From Roseiflexus sp. RS-1 (lineage in GTDB: Bacteria > Chloroflexota > Chloroflexia > Chloroflexales > Roseiflexaceae), in NCBI RefSeq assembly GCF_000016665.1, contig NC_009523.1, forward strand, positions 3,038,001 to 3,102,000: DNA of 64,000 nt, given 5' to 3'. Each line of letters begins with the position of its first letter. Positions within the stretch are counted from its first letter, which is position 1. A model generated the notes under the pieces. It did not search any database. It had not been told where the DNA came from and worked only from the letters and a program-made list of their open reading frames with translations. Below are positions 2,297-11,220 of this stretch, piece by piece. The position numbers and the translations under genes were made by a program.

Positions 2297-3712
2297 TCAC
2301 GAAGCCGATTCGATGCCGTGCTCTTTCGCCACGATAGCATCATAGAGCACGTGGAACTCTCGCTCGAACGCCTCAGTTATGGTCTGCGGGTCGGGAACCA
2401 GCCCTGTGTCGGTGATCACCCCAAGCGTCACCTGTCCGCAGTAACTCATAATGCTGATCCCCATGCCGAGTCGCCCGGATTGCGGCACCCAGAACATGAT
2501 GTTCTTGATCCGATTGCCGGCCAGATACAGTTGCTCCGTCGGACCGCGCACATTGGTCATTACGGCAGTCGCCTTGCTGCCGAAGAGATTGACCGCCTGC
2601 TCCTCCACCTGCGCTGGCGTGCGCCCGAAGAAATTGAGCAGACCGTAGAAGACATACGCTTCGGGTGAGCGTTTGAGCGCCTCCATCCGCTGCTTGACCT
2701 CGGCGAGCCGCATGACCGGACCGGGCGTTCCCAGCGGCAGTGACAGGAAGACCAGTCCGAACTCATTCCCCAGATCGTGAGCGCGCGACGGCGGTCGTAG
2801 ATCGACCGGAATCACCGCGCGGATCTCCAGTCCGTCCACCTTGAAATTGCGCCCGATCAGATAGGCGCGCAGCGCCCCTGCTACGGCTGCCAGCAGCACG
2901 TCATTCACTTTTGCGCCAGCAACCTTCCCGATCTGCTTCACCTGATCCAGGGGTACAGGCGCCGACCAGGCGACGCGCTTTTGCACGCCGAGCGGTCCCT
3001 TGAACGGCGTCTTTGTTTCGGGCGACAGCAGCAACACCCGACTCAGCGCCAGCGCCCCGCTGGCTGCCTGAGCCGGTAGATCGAGCAGATGTTCGGGATG
3101 ACGGAGGAACTCCATCCCTTCGTGAACCAGATCGTCCGCCAGTTTGATCGTTCCTTCAATCGTCGAGACAAGCGGCTCCAGCAACGGACCGAGTGTGTGG
3201 TCATGATTGGAGTGCGGCGTCGGGCGCTCGATCGGCGCATCAGGCGTGGTATCCATCAACCGGTGCATCACCGTGTTCATGGCAGTGCCGTCGCCGATGC
3301 AATGATGGAAGCGCATCACAATCGCTGAGCCACCGAGGACATTCTCGACCAGATGCACCTGCCAGAGTGGTTTGGTGCGGTCGAGCGGCGTACTTGCCAG
3401 ATCACCGAGGAATTCCTGAAGAGTGGTCATATCACCGGGCGATGGCAGCGCCACCCGGTGAATATGGGAGCGGAGCGAGAAATAAGGATCAGGTTCCCAC
3501 CGGGGAGCGTTCAACGCATCACGGTGATCCGTCACCCGCATGCGAAAGCGATCAAAAGACAACAAACGCGACTCAAACGTCTTGTAGCAGCGTTCGACAT
3601 CAATCGGTCCATCGAGCAGCGCAACTCCGGTAACCATCATCAGATTGGTCGGATCGTCCATATGCAACCAGGCGCTGTCGACGGCGCTGAGAGGATGGGA
3701 AGCCTGAGCCAT
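2297..3712 (-). CDS. Wax ester synthase / diacylglycerol acyltransferase (WS/DGAT)
   Basis: This 471-residue protein is a bacterial WS/DGAT: the catalytic motif HHxxxDG is present as HHCIGDG (residues 136-142), preceded by PLDRTKPLWQVHLVE, and a C-terminal DUF1298 region carries TNVRGP. These enzymes join acyl-CoA to a fatty alcohol or diacylglycerol at the membrane surface, giving wax esters or storage lipid. The start at 3712 (MAQASHPLS) has GGAGG eight bases upstream, whereas the longer frame has none. It is transcribed divergently from the phosphorylase gene at 3935. An acyl-ACP-reductase-like gene at 33103 in the same window could supply the aldehyde/alcohol branch. Confidence 0.92.
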   Translation of the reverse strand: MAQASHPLSAVDSAWLHMDDPTNLMMVTGVALLDGPIDVERCYKTFESRLLSFDRFRMRVTDHRDALNAPRWEPDPYFSLRSHIHRVALPSPGDMTTLQEFLGDLASTPLDRTKPLWQVHLVENVLGGSAIVMRFHHCIGDGTAMNTVMHRLMDTTPDAPIERPTPHSNHDHTLGPLLEPLVSTIEGTIKLADDLVHEGMEFLRHPEHLLDLPAQAASGALALSRVLLLSPETKTPFKGPLGVQKRVAWSAPVPLDQVKQIGKVAGAKVNDVLLAAVAGALRAYLIGRNFKVDGLEIRAVIPVDLRPPSRAHDLGNEFGLVFLSLPLGTPGPVMRLAEVKQRMEALKRSPEAYVFYGLLNFFGRTPAQVEEQAVNLFGSKATAVMTNVRGPTEQLYLAGNRIKNIMFWVPQSGRLGMGISIMSYCGQVTLGVITDTGLVPDPQTITEAFEREFHVLYDAIVAKEHGIESAS

Positions 3713-3811
3713 CGTATGCCCTCCGTGAGCGACCAGAACCACTGCGGTGGGTTCATCGTACACGACAGGCGGTAGCAGCAGAGGTGAGAAGTTGCCACAG
3801 AGCGATAAGGG

Positions 3812-5980: not shown

Positions 5981-6224
5981 GCGGGCGTCTCGCCCACATG
6001 CAGCGATGCGACTTGAAGTCAACCCGCTTATCGGAGGAGAGAGACACGGTGCGGGCGTCTCGCCCGCATGCAGCGATGCGACTTGAAGTCAACCCGCTTA
6101 TCGGAGGAGAGAGACACGGTGCGGGCGTCTCGCCCGCATGCAGCGATGCGACTTGAAGTCAACCGGCTTATCGGAGGAGAGAGACACGGTGCGCAGGCGT
6201 CTCGCTCGCATGCAGCGATGCGAC
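5981..6224. repeat. 70-bp tandem repeat, about 3.5 copies
   Basis: GCGGGCGTCT recurs at 5981, 6051 and 6121 and, with two extra bases, near 6191. Each unit contains the hairpin GCGGGCG-TCT-CGCCCGC followed by ATGCAGCGATGCGACTTG and GGAGGAGAGAGACACG. The last copy breaks off and merges into GAGCGAGAGCATCACGCCCTC, related to the dispersed element at 12017 and 57021. Open frames across it are by-products of the repeat. Confidence 0.9.
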
Positions 6225-6332: not shown

Positions 6333-7997
6333 ATGGCAGAAAAACAGAAAACGGTGGTTGCAGCGGCGCTTGGCGAATGTGTCCATGTCGCAGGCGTGAT
6401 GAACTTTCTGCGTCTGGCAGAGGAAGCTGGCTGGCGCACCGTATTTCTCGGTCCGGCGACGCCGGTCGAGCGGGTTCTCGAAGCGGCGCGACGCGAACAG
6501 GCTGACCTGGTTGGCGTATCGTACCGGTTGACGCCGGAAACCGGCGCGCATCTGCTGGGACGGTTCGCCGAGGCTGCCGATGATCTGCACGCTGCCGGAG
6601 TGCGCTTCGCCTTCGCCGGGACGCCGCCGCTGGCGGAAAAAGCGGCAACGCTTGGGTTTTTCGAGCAGGTGTTCGACGGAAGCGAACCTGCCGATCAGGT
6701 GCTGGCGTATCTCAGGGGGCAAAACCCGGCGACGGCAACCGAAGCGGATTTTCCGCAACGCACGGTTGACCGCATTCGCTGGAAGTCGCCATACCCTCTG
6801 CTGCGGCACCATTTTGGTTTGCCGACCATGCAGGCGACCATCGCAGGGATTGCAAAAATCGCCGAGTCGCGGCGCCTCGATGTCATTTCCCTCGGTACCG
6901 ATCAGGACGCCCAGGAGAATTTCTTCCACCCCGAACGCCAGGACCCGGCGCGCACCGGAGCGGGCGGCGTCCCGGTGCGCAGCGCCGACGATTACCGCGC
7001 CCTCTACGCTGCCAGTCGGCGGGGGAACTACCCCTTGATGAGGACGTATTCCGGCACCGACGACTTCGTTCGCCTGGCGGAATTGTATGTCGAGACGATC
7101 AACATCGCCTGGTGCGCCATCCCGCTCTTCTGGTTCAACCGGATGGATGGACGTGGACCGTGGGATCTGGAGGGATCGATCCGTGAGCATCAGACGATCA
7201 TGCGCTGGTACGGCGAGCGCGATATCCCGGTCGAACTCAACGAACCGCATCACTGGGGCATGCGCGACGCGCCTGATACGGTCTTCGTCGCCAGCGCCTA
7301 CCTCTCGGCGTACAACGCCCGCGCCTTTGGCGTGCGCGATTACATTGCACAGTTGATGTTCAACAGCCCACCCGGTCTTTCCGACGCCATGGACCTGGCA
7401 AAAATGCTGGCGGTGATCGAGATCACCGCGCCGCTGGCGGGACCGGATTTCCGCATCTGGAAGCAGACCCGCACCGGGTTGCTGAGTTACCCGGTCGATC
7501 CGGCAGCATCGCGCGCACACCTCTCGGCGAGTATCTACCTCCAGATGGCGCTTCGTCCGCATATCGTGCATGTTGTGGGTCATACCGAAGCACACCACGC
7601 CGCAACCGCCGATGACGTGATCGAAGCCTGCGATATGGCGCGCCGCGCTATCGAAAATGCGCTACGCGGTCAACCCGATATGACGGCGGATCCGGCGGTG
7701 CGGGCGCGGGCAGCGCAACTGGTCGAAGAGACGCATCTGCTCCTCGATGCGATTGCGCAACTTGCACCGCCGGGCGTCACCGATCCGCTGTCCGATCCCG
7801 CCACCCTGACGAAAGCCGTTGCCGTCGGGTTGCTCGATGCACCCCAGTTGCGCAACAATCCCTTTGCACCCGGTCGCGTCGTTACGCGCTTTATCAACGG
7901 CATGTGCGTGGCGGTCGATGATCAGGGTCGTCCGCTCGACGAAAAGCAACGCATCCGGCAGATTCTGGATCATCATACGACGCTTGTAACGACTTGA
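6333..7997 (+). CDS. B12-binding, glutamate-mutase-like protein
   Basis: This 554-residue protein joins an N-terminal cobalamin-binding-type Rossmann domain (about 1-130) to a long domain resembling the epsilon/large subunit of methylaspartate (glutamate) mutase, with WCAIPLFWFNRMDGRGPWDL at 260-279. In B12 proteins the cobalt-binding signature is DxHxxG; here it reads CVHVAG (16-21), so the ligand His18 and the Gly remain but the Asp is Cys. SxL (S63-L66) is kept. It probably catalyses, or evolved from, a B12-dependent carbon-skeleton rearrangement of an acidic amino acid. The ATG at 6333 follows the repeat region. Opine dehydrogenase follows after 19 bases. Confidence 0.72.
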   Translation: MAEKQKTVVAAALGECVHVAGVMNFLRLAEEAGWRTVFLGPATPVERVLEAARREQADLVGVSYRLTPETGAHLLGRFAEAADDLHAAGVRFAFAGTPPLAEKAATLGFFEQVFDGSEPADQVLAYLRGQNPATATEADFPQRTVDRIRWKSPYPLLRHHFGLPTMQATIAGIAKIAESRRLDVISLGTDQDAQENFFHPERQDPARTGAGGVPVRSADDYRALYAASRRGNYPLMRTYSGTDDFVRLAELYVETINIAWCAIPLFWFNRMDGRGPWDLEGSIREHQTIMRWYGERDIPVELNEPHHWGMRDAPDTVFVASAYLSAYNARAFGVRDYIAQLMFNSPPGLSDAMDLAKMLAVIEITAPLAGPDFRIWKQTRTGLLSYPVDPAASRAHLSASIYLQMALRPHIVHVVGHTEAHHAATADDVIEACDMARRAIENALRGQPDMTADPAVRARAAQLVEETHLLLDAIAQLAPPGVTDPLSDPATLTKAVAVGLLDAPQLRNNPFAPGRVVTRFINGMCVAVDDQGRPLDEKQRIRQILDHHTTLVTT

Positions 7998-8016
7998 CAT
8001 AAAAGGAGAACCATGT

Positions 8017-9123
8017 ATGGCACCCTCAACCCGCTACACCGTCATCGGCGCCGGGAATGGCGGGAAGGCGATGGCAGCGCATCTGGCGCTGATGGGCTTC
8101 GAGACAACCCTTTACAATCGCACTCCCGCCCATATCGAAGCTATCCGGCAGCGCCGCGGCATTGAGCTGGAGTCCGGTGAAACCGGGCCGCGCGGTTTTG
8201 GCCAGCTTGCGCTGGTAACATCGGATATGAAAGAGGCGCTTGATCATTGCGATGTGGCAATGGTGGTCGTTCCTTCGTCGGCGCACGCCGAAGTGGCGCG
8301 ATCTATGGCGCCGCATCTGCGCGATGGGCAGATTATTATTCTGCATCCCGGTCGCACCTGCGGCGCTATCGAGGTTGCTAAAGTGCTGCGTGATGAACGT
8401 TGCCGGGCGGATGTGACCGTTGCCGAAGCGGAGACATTCATCTACGCCAGCCGGTCGGATGGTCCGGCGCAGGCGCGTATTTTCCGCATCAAGGAAGCGG
8501 TGCCGCTGGCGGCGCTCCCTGCGTATCGCACCAGCGATGTGCTTGGTGTGATCCACGACGCATTCCCGCAGTATATCGACGGCGGCAATGTATTGCGCAC
8601 CGGTTTGAACAACATGGGCGCTATTTTTCACCCGGCACTAACGTTGTTGAACGCCGGACGCATCGAGTCGACCCGTGGCGATTTTCAATTCTATATCGAT
8701 GGCGTTACACCTTCGGTAGCCCGCGTGCTCGAAGTGATCGACCGGGAGCGGGTGACGGTTGCGGCTGCGCTCGGTATTCGCGCCCGCACGGCGCAGGAGT
8801 GGCTGGCGCTGGCGTACAATGCAACTGGCGACTCACTCTATGAAGCCATTCAGAACCAACCGGGCTACTACGGCATCAAAGCCCCGCCGACGCTCAACCA
8901 TCGCTACATTTTCGAGGATGTGCCGATGAGCCTGGTGCCGATTGCAGCGCTCGGTCAACGCTACGGCGTTGCCGTCGCTGGCATCGACAGCATTATTCGT
9001 CTGGCATGTATCATTCACCGTACCGACTACTGGCGTCGTGGACGCACGCTGGATCGACTGGGCATCGCCAATTTGAGCGTGAGTGAATTGACCCGCTACG
9101 TCGAGGAGGGAACACTGGAGTAG
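8017..9123 (+). CDS. Opine (octopine/nopaline-type) dehydrogenase
   Basis: The 368-residue protein has a dinucleotide-binding GAGNGG at residues 11-16, HPGRT in the middle, and the C-terminal octopine dehydrogenase region with GLNNMGAIFHPALTL and NHRYIFEDVP. The family reductively joins an amino acid to an alpha-keto acid with NAD(P)H, giving an N-carboxyalkyl amino acid (opine). AGGAG at 8004-8008 sits eight bases before the chosen ATG; another ATG four bases earlier is out of frame. It lies between the mutase-like gene and asparagine synthetase in one direction with tight spacing, so its substrate may be the mutase product. Confidence 0.88.
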   Translation: MAPSTRYTVIGAGNGGKAMAAHLALMGFETTLYNRTPAHIEAIRQRRGIELESGETGPRGFGQLALVTSDMKEALDHCDVAMVVVPSSAHAEVARSMAPHLRDGQIIILHPGRTCGAIEVAKVLRDERCRADVTVAEAETFIYASRSDGPAQARIFRIKEAVPLAALPAYRTSDVLGVIHDAFPQYIDGGNVLRTGLNNMGAIFHPALTLLNAGRIESTRGDFQFYIDGVTPSVARVLEVIDRERVTVAAALGIRARTAQEWLALAYNATGDSLYEAIQNQPGYYGIKAPPTLNHRYIFEDVPMSLVPIAALGQRYGVAVAGIDSIIRLACIIHRTDYWRRGRTLDRLGIANLSVSELTRYVEEGTLE

Positions 9124-9150
9124 CAGTTGAATATAAAAGGAGGATAGACA

Positions 9151-10647
9151 ATGTGCGGTATTGCAGGCGCGTATCGAACCACAGACACTGTGCGCATCGA
9201 GCAGATGCTTGACCGGCTAACCCACCGAGGACCTGATGGACAGGGCGTGGTAGCCACCGATACAGGCGTTCTGGGGCATACACGCCTGGCAATCATCGAT
9301 CTGGAAGGCGGTCGGCAACCGATGGAGCACGATGGCGCGCTGATCTGTTTCAACGGCGAGATCTACAACTACCGCATCTTGCGTGATCGCTATCTCCGTG
9401 ATCAGACACTCGAAACCGATAGCGACACCGAGGTGCTGTTGCGCCTGTACCGCACACTCGGTCCCGGCTTTGTCAACCTGCTCGAAGGGATGTTTGCGTT
9501 TGCCATTCTCGATGGCGACGATCTCTTTCTCGCGCGCGACCCGATCGGCATCAAGCCGCTTTATCTGGCACAGCGCGACCACACGTTGCTGTTTGCTTCG
9601 GAAATCAAAGCGCTCGCGCTGCAAGCCGATCAGGTGACGACGTTTCCGCCAGGGACATGGTATCACTCGCGCTTCGGCAGCCATGCCTATTACGAGTTTG
9701 CTCAGGGTTGGCCCCGAAACGGCGTCTTCGAGACTGTCGAACAGGCGAAGAACGCTATTCGCGCGGTACTGCGCTCAGCCGTTCATAAGCGTTTGCTGGC
9801 GGATGTTCCGGTGGGGGTCAGTCTCAGCGGCGGACTCGATAGCAGCATTATCGCGCTCCTGGCATGCGCAGAACTCGATCATATCGAAACGTTCGCCGTT
9901 GGGATGGAGGGCAGCGAGGATCTGGAAGCGGCGCGTCGGATGGCGCAGTATCTGGGAACACGTCATTACGAGTATGTGTATACACGCGCCGAAATGGAAG
10001 CTGTGCTGCCCGACGTGATCTACTATCTCGAATCGGCCGATCCGGCGCTGGTGCGTAGCGCTGTACCGAACTACTTCCTGGCGCGACTGGCTTCCGAGCG
10101 GGTGAAAGTGATTCTCACCGGCGAGGGCGCCGATGAACTGTACGCCGGGTACGACTACATGCGTGCGCTGACAACGCCGGAAGATCTTCATCGTGAGCTT
10201 GAAATAGCGATCCGCGAACTGCATCGCACCAATCTTCAACGCGCTGATCGCATGTTCATGGCGTTCGGCGTCGAAGGGCGCGTGCCGTTCCTGGACGTGG
10301 AGTCGATTGCGCTGGCGCTCAGTCTGCCGCCGGAATGGAAACTGGCAGCGCCCGGCGAACCGACGAAAATGCTGCTCCGCGAGGCGTTCGCCAGCGATCT
10401 GCCCGAGTCGATTGTGCAGCGCCCCAAGCAGAAGTTCTCTGCCGGCGCCGGCTCAATGTACGAACTTGCCAGAGTTGCTGAAGAACGGTTTGATGACCAG
10501 ACGTTTGCGCGGGAGCGCCAGCGCCTGATGCAGCGCTGGAACTATCGCCTTCCAAACAAAGAAGCGCTCTACTATCTCGATACCCTGCGCGCCGTGCTTC
10601 CAGAGCGCCTGATCATGCCGGAGATGGGGATGAGTCGGAGCCTCTGA
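9151..10647 (+). CDS. Asparagine synthetase (glutamine-hydrolysing), AsnB type
   Basis: This 498-residue protein begins MCGIAG, placing the nucleophile Cys at position 2 of a class II glutaminase domain (about 2-190, with HRGPDG and FNGEIYN). The synthetase half carries the ATP-pyrophosphatase loop SLSGGLDSS (224-232) and LTGEGADELYAGY. It would make asparagine, or an amide of a related acidic substrate, using glutamine and ATP. It is shorter than E. coli AsnB (about 554 residues). AAAGGAGG precedes the ATG. Its place after a mutase-like protein and opine dehydrogenase makes a role in a modified amino-acid pathway possible. A decayed copy of its middle lies at 11317. Confidence 0.93.
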   Translation: MCGIAGAYRTTDTVRIEQMLDRLTHRGPDGQGVVATDTGVLGHTRLAIIDLEGGRQPMEHDGALICFNGEIYNYRILRDRYLRDQTLETDSDTEVLLRLYRTLGPGFVNLLEGMFAFAILDGDDLFLARDPIGIKPLYLAQRDHTLLFASEIKALALQADQVTTFPPGTWYHSRFGSHAYYEFAQGWPRNGVFETVEQAKNAIRAVLRSAVHKRLLADVPVGVSLSGGLDSSIIALLACAELDHIETFAVGMEGSEDLEAARRMAQYLGTRHYEYVYTRAEMEAVLPDVIYYLESADPALVRSAVPNYFLARLASERVKVILTGEGADELYAGYDYMRALTTPEDLHRELEIAIRELHRTNLQRADRMFMAFGVEGRVPFLDVESIALALSLPPEWKLAAPGEPTKMLLREAFASDLPESIVQRPKQKFSAGAGSMYELARVAEERFDDQTFARERQRLMQRWNYRLPNKEALYYLDTLRAVLPERLIMPEMGMSRSL

Positions 10648-10763
10648 GAACAGGCGCTTAATGTGCTGCTCTATGAGTCATCGCTCTCAGCATGGGTGTC
10701 AGCCCCATTATGCGCCCGGTCGTTTGTGATCAATCCTGCTCGGCGCCACGGCAGGAGCGAAAG

Positions 10764-11011
10764 ATGGACTATGTTCTGACGGAACACGCACGCGACGCGC
10801 TCAAGAAGCGGCATATTCAGATCGCCTGGATGGAACGTGCATTGACCCGTCCAGAGGTGACTGAGACCGACCCAGTGGACGCGGATCTGGAACACCGTCT
10901 CGCGCGGATCCCTGAATTTGGGCATCGCGTGTTACGGGTCATTGTAACACCAGGAGAACACCGCCACATATTGTAACGGTATTCTTTGATAGGAGGAGAA
11001 CCATTCCATGA
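10764..11011 (+). pseudogene. DUF4258 protein, C-terminus frameshifted
   Basis: From the ATG at 10764 (AGGAG upstream) the frame gives MDYVLTEHARDALKKR and HRVLRVIVTPGEHRHIL, then stops at 10974-10976. In the frame entered by skipping two bases near 10968, the expected end IVTVFFDRR continues to a TGA at 11009-11011. That TGA overlaps the ATG of the next gene as ATGA, the usual arrangement for a coupled pair. One missing or two extra bases have therefore cut off the last ~13 residues. DUF4258 proteins are small relatives of RelE/HigB-like toxins often found beside DUF2283 genes. The 70-residue truncated product may or may not work. Confidence 0.75.
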
Positions 11012-11220
11012 AGTTAAAAGTAGACCGACAAGCCGACGCGCTTTACCTGACGTTGAGTGAGGCGCCTGCGAGTCGTTCAGAGGAAGTCTCGCCCGGCATC
11101 ATCGTGGATTATGACGATCAAGACCGCGTCGTCGGCATTGAGATGCTGTATTTGTCCAGACGGGCGCCGGATGCCAATGTGCAGCAACTGTTGTTCGAGA
11201 CCGTCCCGGAAGTCGCCTGA
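11008..11220 (+). CDS. DUF2283 small protein, probable antitoxin-like partner
   Basis: The 70-residue product matches the DUF2283 pattern: MKLKVDRQADALYLTL, then SEEVSPGIIVDYD and VVGIEMLYLS. Function is not established for the family, but it is commonly the second gene of a DUF4258-DUF2283 pair that resembles a toxin-antitoxin module. AGGAGG lies at 10991-10996, and the ATG overlaps the restored stop codon of the upstream gene by the ATGA arrangement. Confidence 0.85.
   Translation: MKLKVDRQADALYLTLSEAPASRSEEVSPGIIVDYDDQDRVVGIEMLYLSRRAPDANVQQLLFETVPEVA

Follow-up and report, generated by a model that had tools for sequence, protein, structure and literature searches.

A glutamate-mutase-fold protein and an opine dehydrogenase form a conserved gene pair in Chloroflexota

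We analysed a window of 64,000 nucleotides from the closed chromosome (5,801,598 bases) of Roseiflexus sp. RS-1 (NC_009523.1, positions 3,038,001 to 3,102,000; coordinates of this locus are those of the window), in which three plus-strand genes encode a single-chain B12-dependent mutase-like protein (P0001; 6333-7997, 554 aa), an opine dehydrogenase (ODH) of family PF02317 (P0002; 8017-9123, 368 aa) and a glutamine-dependent AsnB-type amide synthetase (P0003; 9151-10647, 498 aa). The gene order and the gaps of 19 bases between the mutase and ODH genes and 27 bases between the ODH gene and asnB bear out a preliminary description of this DNA, which had joined all three genes in one pathway-like unit. 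The conserved core, however, is the mutase and ODH pair only, and with a probability of roughly 0.55 the two enzymes act one directly after the other in a single pathway centred on an acidic amino acid. A literature search that combined ODHs with glutamate mutase, B12 or Chloroflexi turned up no description of an ODH paired with a B12 mutase, in line with the preliminary description, which had not recognised the unit as a described system. New here are an unnamed mutase family and an undescribed pairing, the folds being already known.

Conservation of the pair in two genomic contexts

Conservation was assessed in two samples, 400 genomes of the phylum and a set of one-per-species genomes from which the 80 best loci were taken. 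Of the 400 genomes, 27 encode a protein closely related to the mutase (65-100% identity), and at each of the 26 loci for which flanking sequence was available an ODH gene adjoined the mutase gene. The 80 best loci of the one-per-species set all came from Chloroflexota, mostly from Anaerolineae, and in 78 of them the ODH gene lay next to the mutase gene on the same strand; at L073 an AsnB-like gene is inserted between the two, and at L128 the contig ends 469 bases past the mutase gene. After mutase and ODH the commonest neighbour in the compared loci was AsnB (9 loci), every other family occurring in at most 5, and since no other neighbour comes close to the constancy of the ODH gene, the adjacency is not due to chance. 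The preliminary description had named scattered orthologues in relatives as the finding that would speak against a unit; instead, the neighbourhood is conserved. The divergence of mutase and ODH is correlated (Mantel r 0.41; 0/999 permutations), and PF02317 without the mutase was rare (2 of 36 mutase-negative genomes), the tallies for PF02317 and for PF13941 being raw counts without correction for phylogeny. No homologues were found on plasmids.

A second, divergent context (type II, as opposed to the type I loci described so far) is exemplified by genome G184, whose mutase is 38% identical to P0001 and carries a fused C-terminal MutL/GlmL domain (270 bits). GlmL is the reactivase of adenosylcobalamin (AdoCbl)-dependent mutases. 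Twelve type II loci consist of genes for an RpiR/SIS regulator, a PF02317 ODH and the mutase-GlmL fusion, followed by those for an Opp-type importer (SBP_bac_5, two permeases and two ATPases). Types I and II are split by long, fully supported branches, and the type II ODHs fall in two clades, one of which is just 23% identical to P0002. All 8 paired type II ODHs, across both clades, contain R111 and G198 (numbering of ArODH), the two residues tied to amino-acid preference as detailed below. Two divergent contexts with the same partner and the same specificity residues are the strongest argument for one shared metabolite, on which we suggest that both enzymes work. By analogy with the GlmL-fused relatives, AdoCbl binding and radical chemistry are predicted for P0001, if only indirectly.

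We also considered GlmL acting in trans as support for the type I proteins and rejected it. MutL-like proteins scored above the cut-off in 158 of the 400 genomes and in 26 of 28 mutase genomes, and the latter count says little because such proteins are common across the phylum. They are widespread in Chloroflexota at a length of about 580-735 aa (for example G000:C1:3014028-3015431). At the type II locus L255 (3924-6908), inspection by eye revealed alanine-racemase-like and gamma-glutamyltransferase-like genes between the importer genes and the ODH gene.

Fold of the mutase and specificity residues of the opine dehydrogenase

Pfam recognised a B12-binding domain in residues 7-100 of P0001 (39.8 bits), and the remaining 450 residues had no Pfam or NCBIfam match. 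We turn to an AlphaFold model based on 51 aligned homologues (predicted local distance difference test, pLDDT, 87.9; predicted TM-score, pTM, 0.84), for which Foldseek returned as top matches the glutamate mutase E chains 6h9e_B (E 7e-16, TMt 0.66) and 1cb7_B (E 1.3e-15), followed by ornithine 4,5-aminomutase, lysine 5,6-aminomutase and methylmalonyl-CoA mutases. The N-terminal Rossmann domain resembles GlmS (1i9c_A, TMt 0.75). According to the model P0001 combines a cobalamin-binding Rossmann domain with a subsequent TIM barrel and C-terminal part resembling GlmE, which supports the earlier assignment as a glutamate-mutase-like B12 protein at the level of structure. Matches of P0001 to antibody chains in a phmmer search were dismissed as chance.

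P0001 shares the fold of both domains with glutamate mutase GlmS/GlmE of Clostridium cochlearium (1cb7, 6h9e) but is a single chain with the S domain first, and its active site is rebuilt. To map residues we aligned P0001 with four MutE proteins using MAFFT. GlmE residues R66, R100, R149, E171, Y177 and Y181, which we take to be substrate contacts with E171 holding the free amino group, correspond to H160, Q194, Y239, C261, W267 and G273 of P0001, and these six as well as K326 are replaced in types I and II. Conversely, E330, presumably an adenosine contact, is retained as E419, and R158 and R237 of P0001 sit two residues ahead of lost arginine positions. The P0001 profile is colinear with MutE over 339 columns, yet the match is weak (hhalign E 0.049), and neither PF06368 nor the NCBIfam glutamate mutase (MutE) models match P0001. 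Because the GlmE substrate residues are replaced and these models do not match, P0001 is not a glutamate mutase by family membership but, judged from the model, a single-chain relative with the glutamate mutase fold. Few genomes encode a true MutE, PF06368 scoring above its cut-off in 4 of 301.

The cobalamin motif is altered, too. P0001 has CxHxxG (C16, H18 and G21; 6378-6395, plus strand) in place of DxHxxG, the Cys falling on the motif Asp in the alignment to GlmS. This variant recurs in both types: 92 of the 94 type I proteins have GECVH[VI]AG, the other two not being scorable, and 11 of the 12 type II proteins have IG[KD]CVH[NS]LG, the remaining one being truncated.

P0002 matches Octopine_DH (PF02317) with 166 bits and has the catalytic dyad, H205 (ArODH position 202) and an Asp at ArODH position 297; judged by these residues, the second gene encodes a true opine dehydrogenase, as had been proposed. 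N-(1-D-carboxyethyl)-L-norvaline dehydrogenase from Arthrobacter (1bg6) is a homologue over the full length (262 bits) with the catalytic His and Asp kept, but it prefers neutral amino acids and uses NADH. Parallels are provided by Telek and colleagues, who expressed six ODHs (mODHs) from the metagenome of a 67-degree hot spring that couple L-aspartate or L-glutamate with pyruvate, mostly using NADPH, and found that exchanging both residues, at ArODH 111 and 198 (A/N to R/G), reverses the amino-acid preference (PMC10787698). That study covers the subclass as isolated enzymes and mentions neither gene context nor a mutase; the mODH sequences are deposited as GenBank TPA BK063522-BK063532.

R113 and G201 of P0002 occupy ArODH positions 111 and 198, and R111, G198, the NADPH-type R35 and the catalytic H202 are found in 90 of 90 paired ODHs. 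P0002 and its orthologues match further mODH-type substitutions at positions 14, 34, 36, 108, 154, 160, 253, 261, 284 and 291, and the R111/G198 combination was present in none of four unpaired ODHs of Chloroflexota (N/N, S/N, S/N and R/A). From these published positions we infer that P0002 belongs to the acidic mODH subclass, and the residue pair predicts a preference for aspartate or glutamate in combination with pyruvate.

A proposed pathway and its alternatives

In the pathway that we propose, the ODH would make or split opines of the N-(1-carboxyethyl)-L-aspartate/glutamate type with NADPH and pyruvate, and the mutase, by means of a 5'-deoxyadenosyl radical, would carry out a carbon-skeleton rearrangement either on the acidic opine or on the acidic amino acid that goes into it. 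AsnB, where encoded, would amidate a carboxylate of the product, and at the type II loci the compound would probably be imported by the Opp-type transporter under control of the RpiR-family regulator. As E171 and the Arg claw are replaced and Arg residues a step further into the barrel are retained, the acidic opine, a secondary amine with three carboxylates, is our preferred mutase substrate, although we hold this choice, and the order of steps that goes with it, only tentatively and at less than even odds. The same reserve applies to the suggestion that rearrangement of an acidic opine, e.g. N-(1-carboxyethyl)-L-aspartate or -glutamate, could yield a new N-alkylated and sometimes amidated amino acid.

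Several observations weigh against this proposal. The active-site mapping stems from alignments at 16-24% identity with an hhalign E of only 0.049, GlmE K326 is a Val (V415) in P0001, and the Asp of DxHxxG is a Cys in types I and II, with His and Gly retained. The only MutL-like protein of type I genomes is encoded elsewhere and is of a kind widespread without the mutase. Moreover, the 90 loci are not independent because the pair is partly co-inherited within the phylum, and gene pairing alone fixes neither the order of steps nor the substrate.

B12 carbon-skeleton mutases are known to catalyse only a small number of reaction types, and a new mutase reaction, if true, would be new chemistry for the glutamate mutase fold and would give the acidic hot-spring ODHs a natural role. 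Since this widespread mutase with its rebuilt active site always adjoins an enzyme of known specificity, its substrate is narrowed enough for a new radical rearrangement to be testable. The pairing further points to what acidic ODHs, so far known only as metagenome-derived biocatalysts, may do in nature, and marks an uncharacterised metabolite in a large share of Anaerolineae.

One alternative to the proposed pathway is a true glutamate mutase that converts glutamate to 3-methylaspartate, followed by N-carboxyethylation by the ODH and amidation by AsnB. The closest fold is indeed that of glutamate mutase, an ODH with acidic preference would suit 3-methylaspartate, and free glutamate is always at hand; nevertheless, we regard this route as improbable, given that the GlmE substrate residues including K326 are replaced in both types and that PF06368 and the NCBIfam models do not match. 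Formation of 3-methylaspartate as such, which the preliminary description had raised, is also at odds with the absence of methylaspartate ammonia-lyase from the host genome. A true methylaspartate ammonia-lyase occurs in 1 of 27 genomes, and glutamate fermentation via the methylaspartate route was rejected for lack of this enzyme. That gap counts likewise against a catabolic role, in which an acidic opine or peptide-like compound would be imported, rearranged by the mutase and split oxidatively by the ODH into amino acid and pyruvate for fermentation. ODH reactions are reversible, many hosts are anaerobic Anaerolineae, and the type II loci have a fitting content, namely an RpiR regulator, an Opp-type importer and, at L062, an amino acid permease gene, but type I loci lack transporters, some carry an amide-forming AsnB, which suggests synthesis, and R35 is an NADPH-type residue, so that catabolism appears unlikely, if a little less so than a true glutamate mutase.

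The importer of the type II loci also brings to mind an opine-type metallophore, i.e. a metal-binding chelator of the polycarboxylate opine kind that, at the type II loci, is taken up again via a Cnt-like five-gene Opp transporter. Iminodiacid opines chelate metals, and the position of the type II ODH gene beside those for SBP_bac_5, two permeases and two ATPases resembles staphylopine and pseudopaline loci, CntABCDF beside CntM in the staphylopine loci being what we take to be a comparable arrangement. In those systems, however, the ODH belongs to another family (CntM rather than PF02317) and a nicotianamine-synthase-like enzyme stands where the B12 mutase is found here; none of the neighbours that recur at type I or type II loci resembled a nicotianamine-synthase-like gene or an exporter, although most neighbouring genes were not scanned, and type I loci have no adjoining transporter. 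We therefore give a metallophore little credence.

A further alternative concerns the third gene, as P0003 could be a plain housekeeping asparagine synthetase located downstream by accident. P0003 (Asn_synthase, 244 bits, and GATase in Pfam) scores 570 bits with NCBIfam PRK09431, above the cut-off, and is the sole AsnB of this type in the host genome, the four other AsnB-like genes differing in type. Like asparagine synthetase B (1ct9), it has the glutaminase Cys2, SGGLDSS and the PP-loop synthetase core, but AL replaces TT of the TTIRAS loop, and P0003 belongs to an operon-linked clade that has no housekeeping setting. We rejected this loop change as a locus-specific trait, as unlinked AsnBs of Chloroflexota have it as well (DPxLVRSA motif), which is compatible with a housekeeping enzyme. 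On the other hand, the 400 genomes contain 8 orthologues at 51% identity or above, each of them within the mutase-ODH locus, and Roseiflexus G316, of the same genus, has the mutase-ODH locus without AsnB and no orthologue elsewhere in its genome. AsnBs linked to the locus group in a separate clade (SH-like approximate likelihood ratio test, SH-aLRT, 92 and 98), and a second clade of Cys-less paralogues (SH-aLRT 100) holds the same position at other loci. A housekeeping enzyme placed there by accident is thus doubtful, though less so than the other alternatives. The preliminary description had left this case to be decided: a separate clade that is dispensable in the genus argues against it, whereas an asparagine-making role of the sole PRK09431-type AsnB is possible.

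AsnB is an optional yet specialised member of the locus and not the core member it had been taken for, since only 13 of the 49 loci that extend 3.5 kb or more beyond the pair encode one. Nine of the 13 have a canonical AsnB with Cys2 and five a Cys-less protein of about 447 aa, one locus carrying both. The Cys-less AsnB-like proteins, e.g. L097:12896-14236, L058:6114-7457 and L073:4476-5843, have an intact synthetase core and may use some other amine in place of the ammonia released from glutamine.

Expression signals and neighbouring genes

The strong ribosome binding sites reported for all three genes hold for two of them: Shine-Dalgarno sequences are located at 8003-8009 (plus strand; GGAG at 8005) ahead of the ODH gene and at 9137-9143 (plus strand; AAGGAGG at 9137) ahead of asnB, but no strong one precedes the start of the mutase gene. 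Directly upstream of the latter lies a 70-base tandem repeat (5981-6224; 3.5 copies, 97% matches). A cobalamin riboswitch was found neither in this region of the window nor at seven other loci.

In 16 of the 49 loci with sufficient downstream sequence a DUF5698/DUF2179 membrane protein is encoded 3' of the pair, with AsnB present or not; overall, such a gene was noted at L042 (4121-4690) and 26 further loci. Downstream of asnB in the window, small DUF4258 and DUF2283 genes follow in tandem (10692-11220) in a toxin-antitoxin-like arrangement. The two genes fall within the interval of the preliminary description but are an unrelated pair, not conserved with the mutase-ODH unit. Further upstream, 13-1497 encodes a protein with a weak match to Card1-like endonucleases (24 bits; cut-off 26.4), and a wax ester synthase/diacylglycerol acyltransferase (WS/DGAT) is encoded on the minus strand at 2297-3763.

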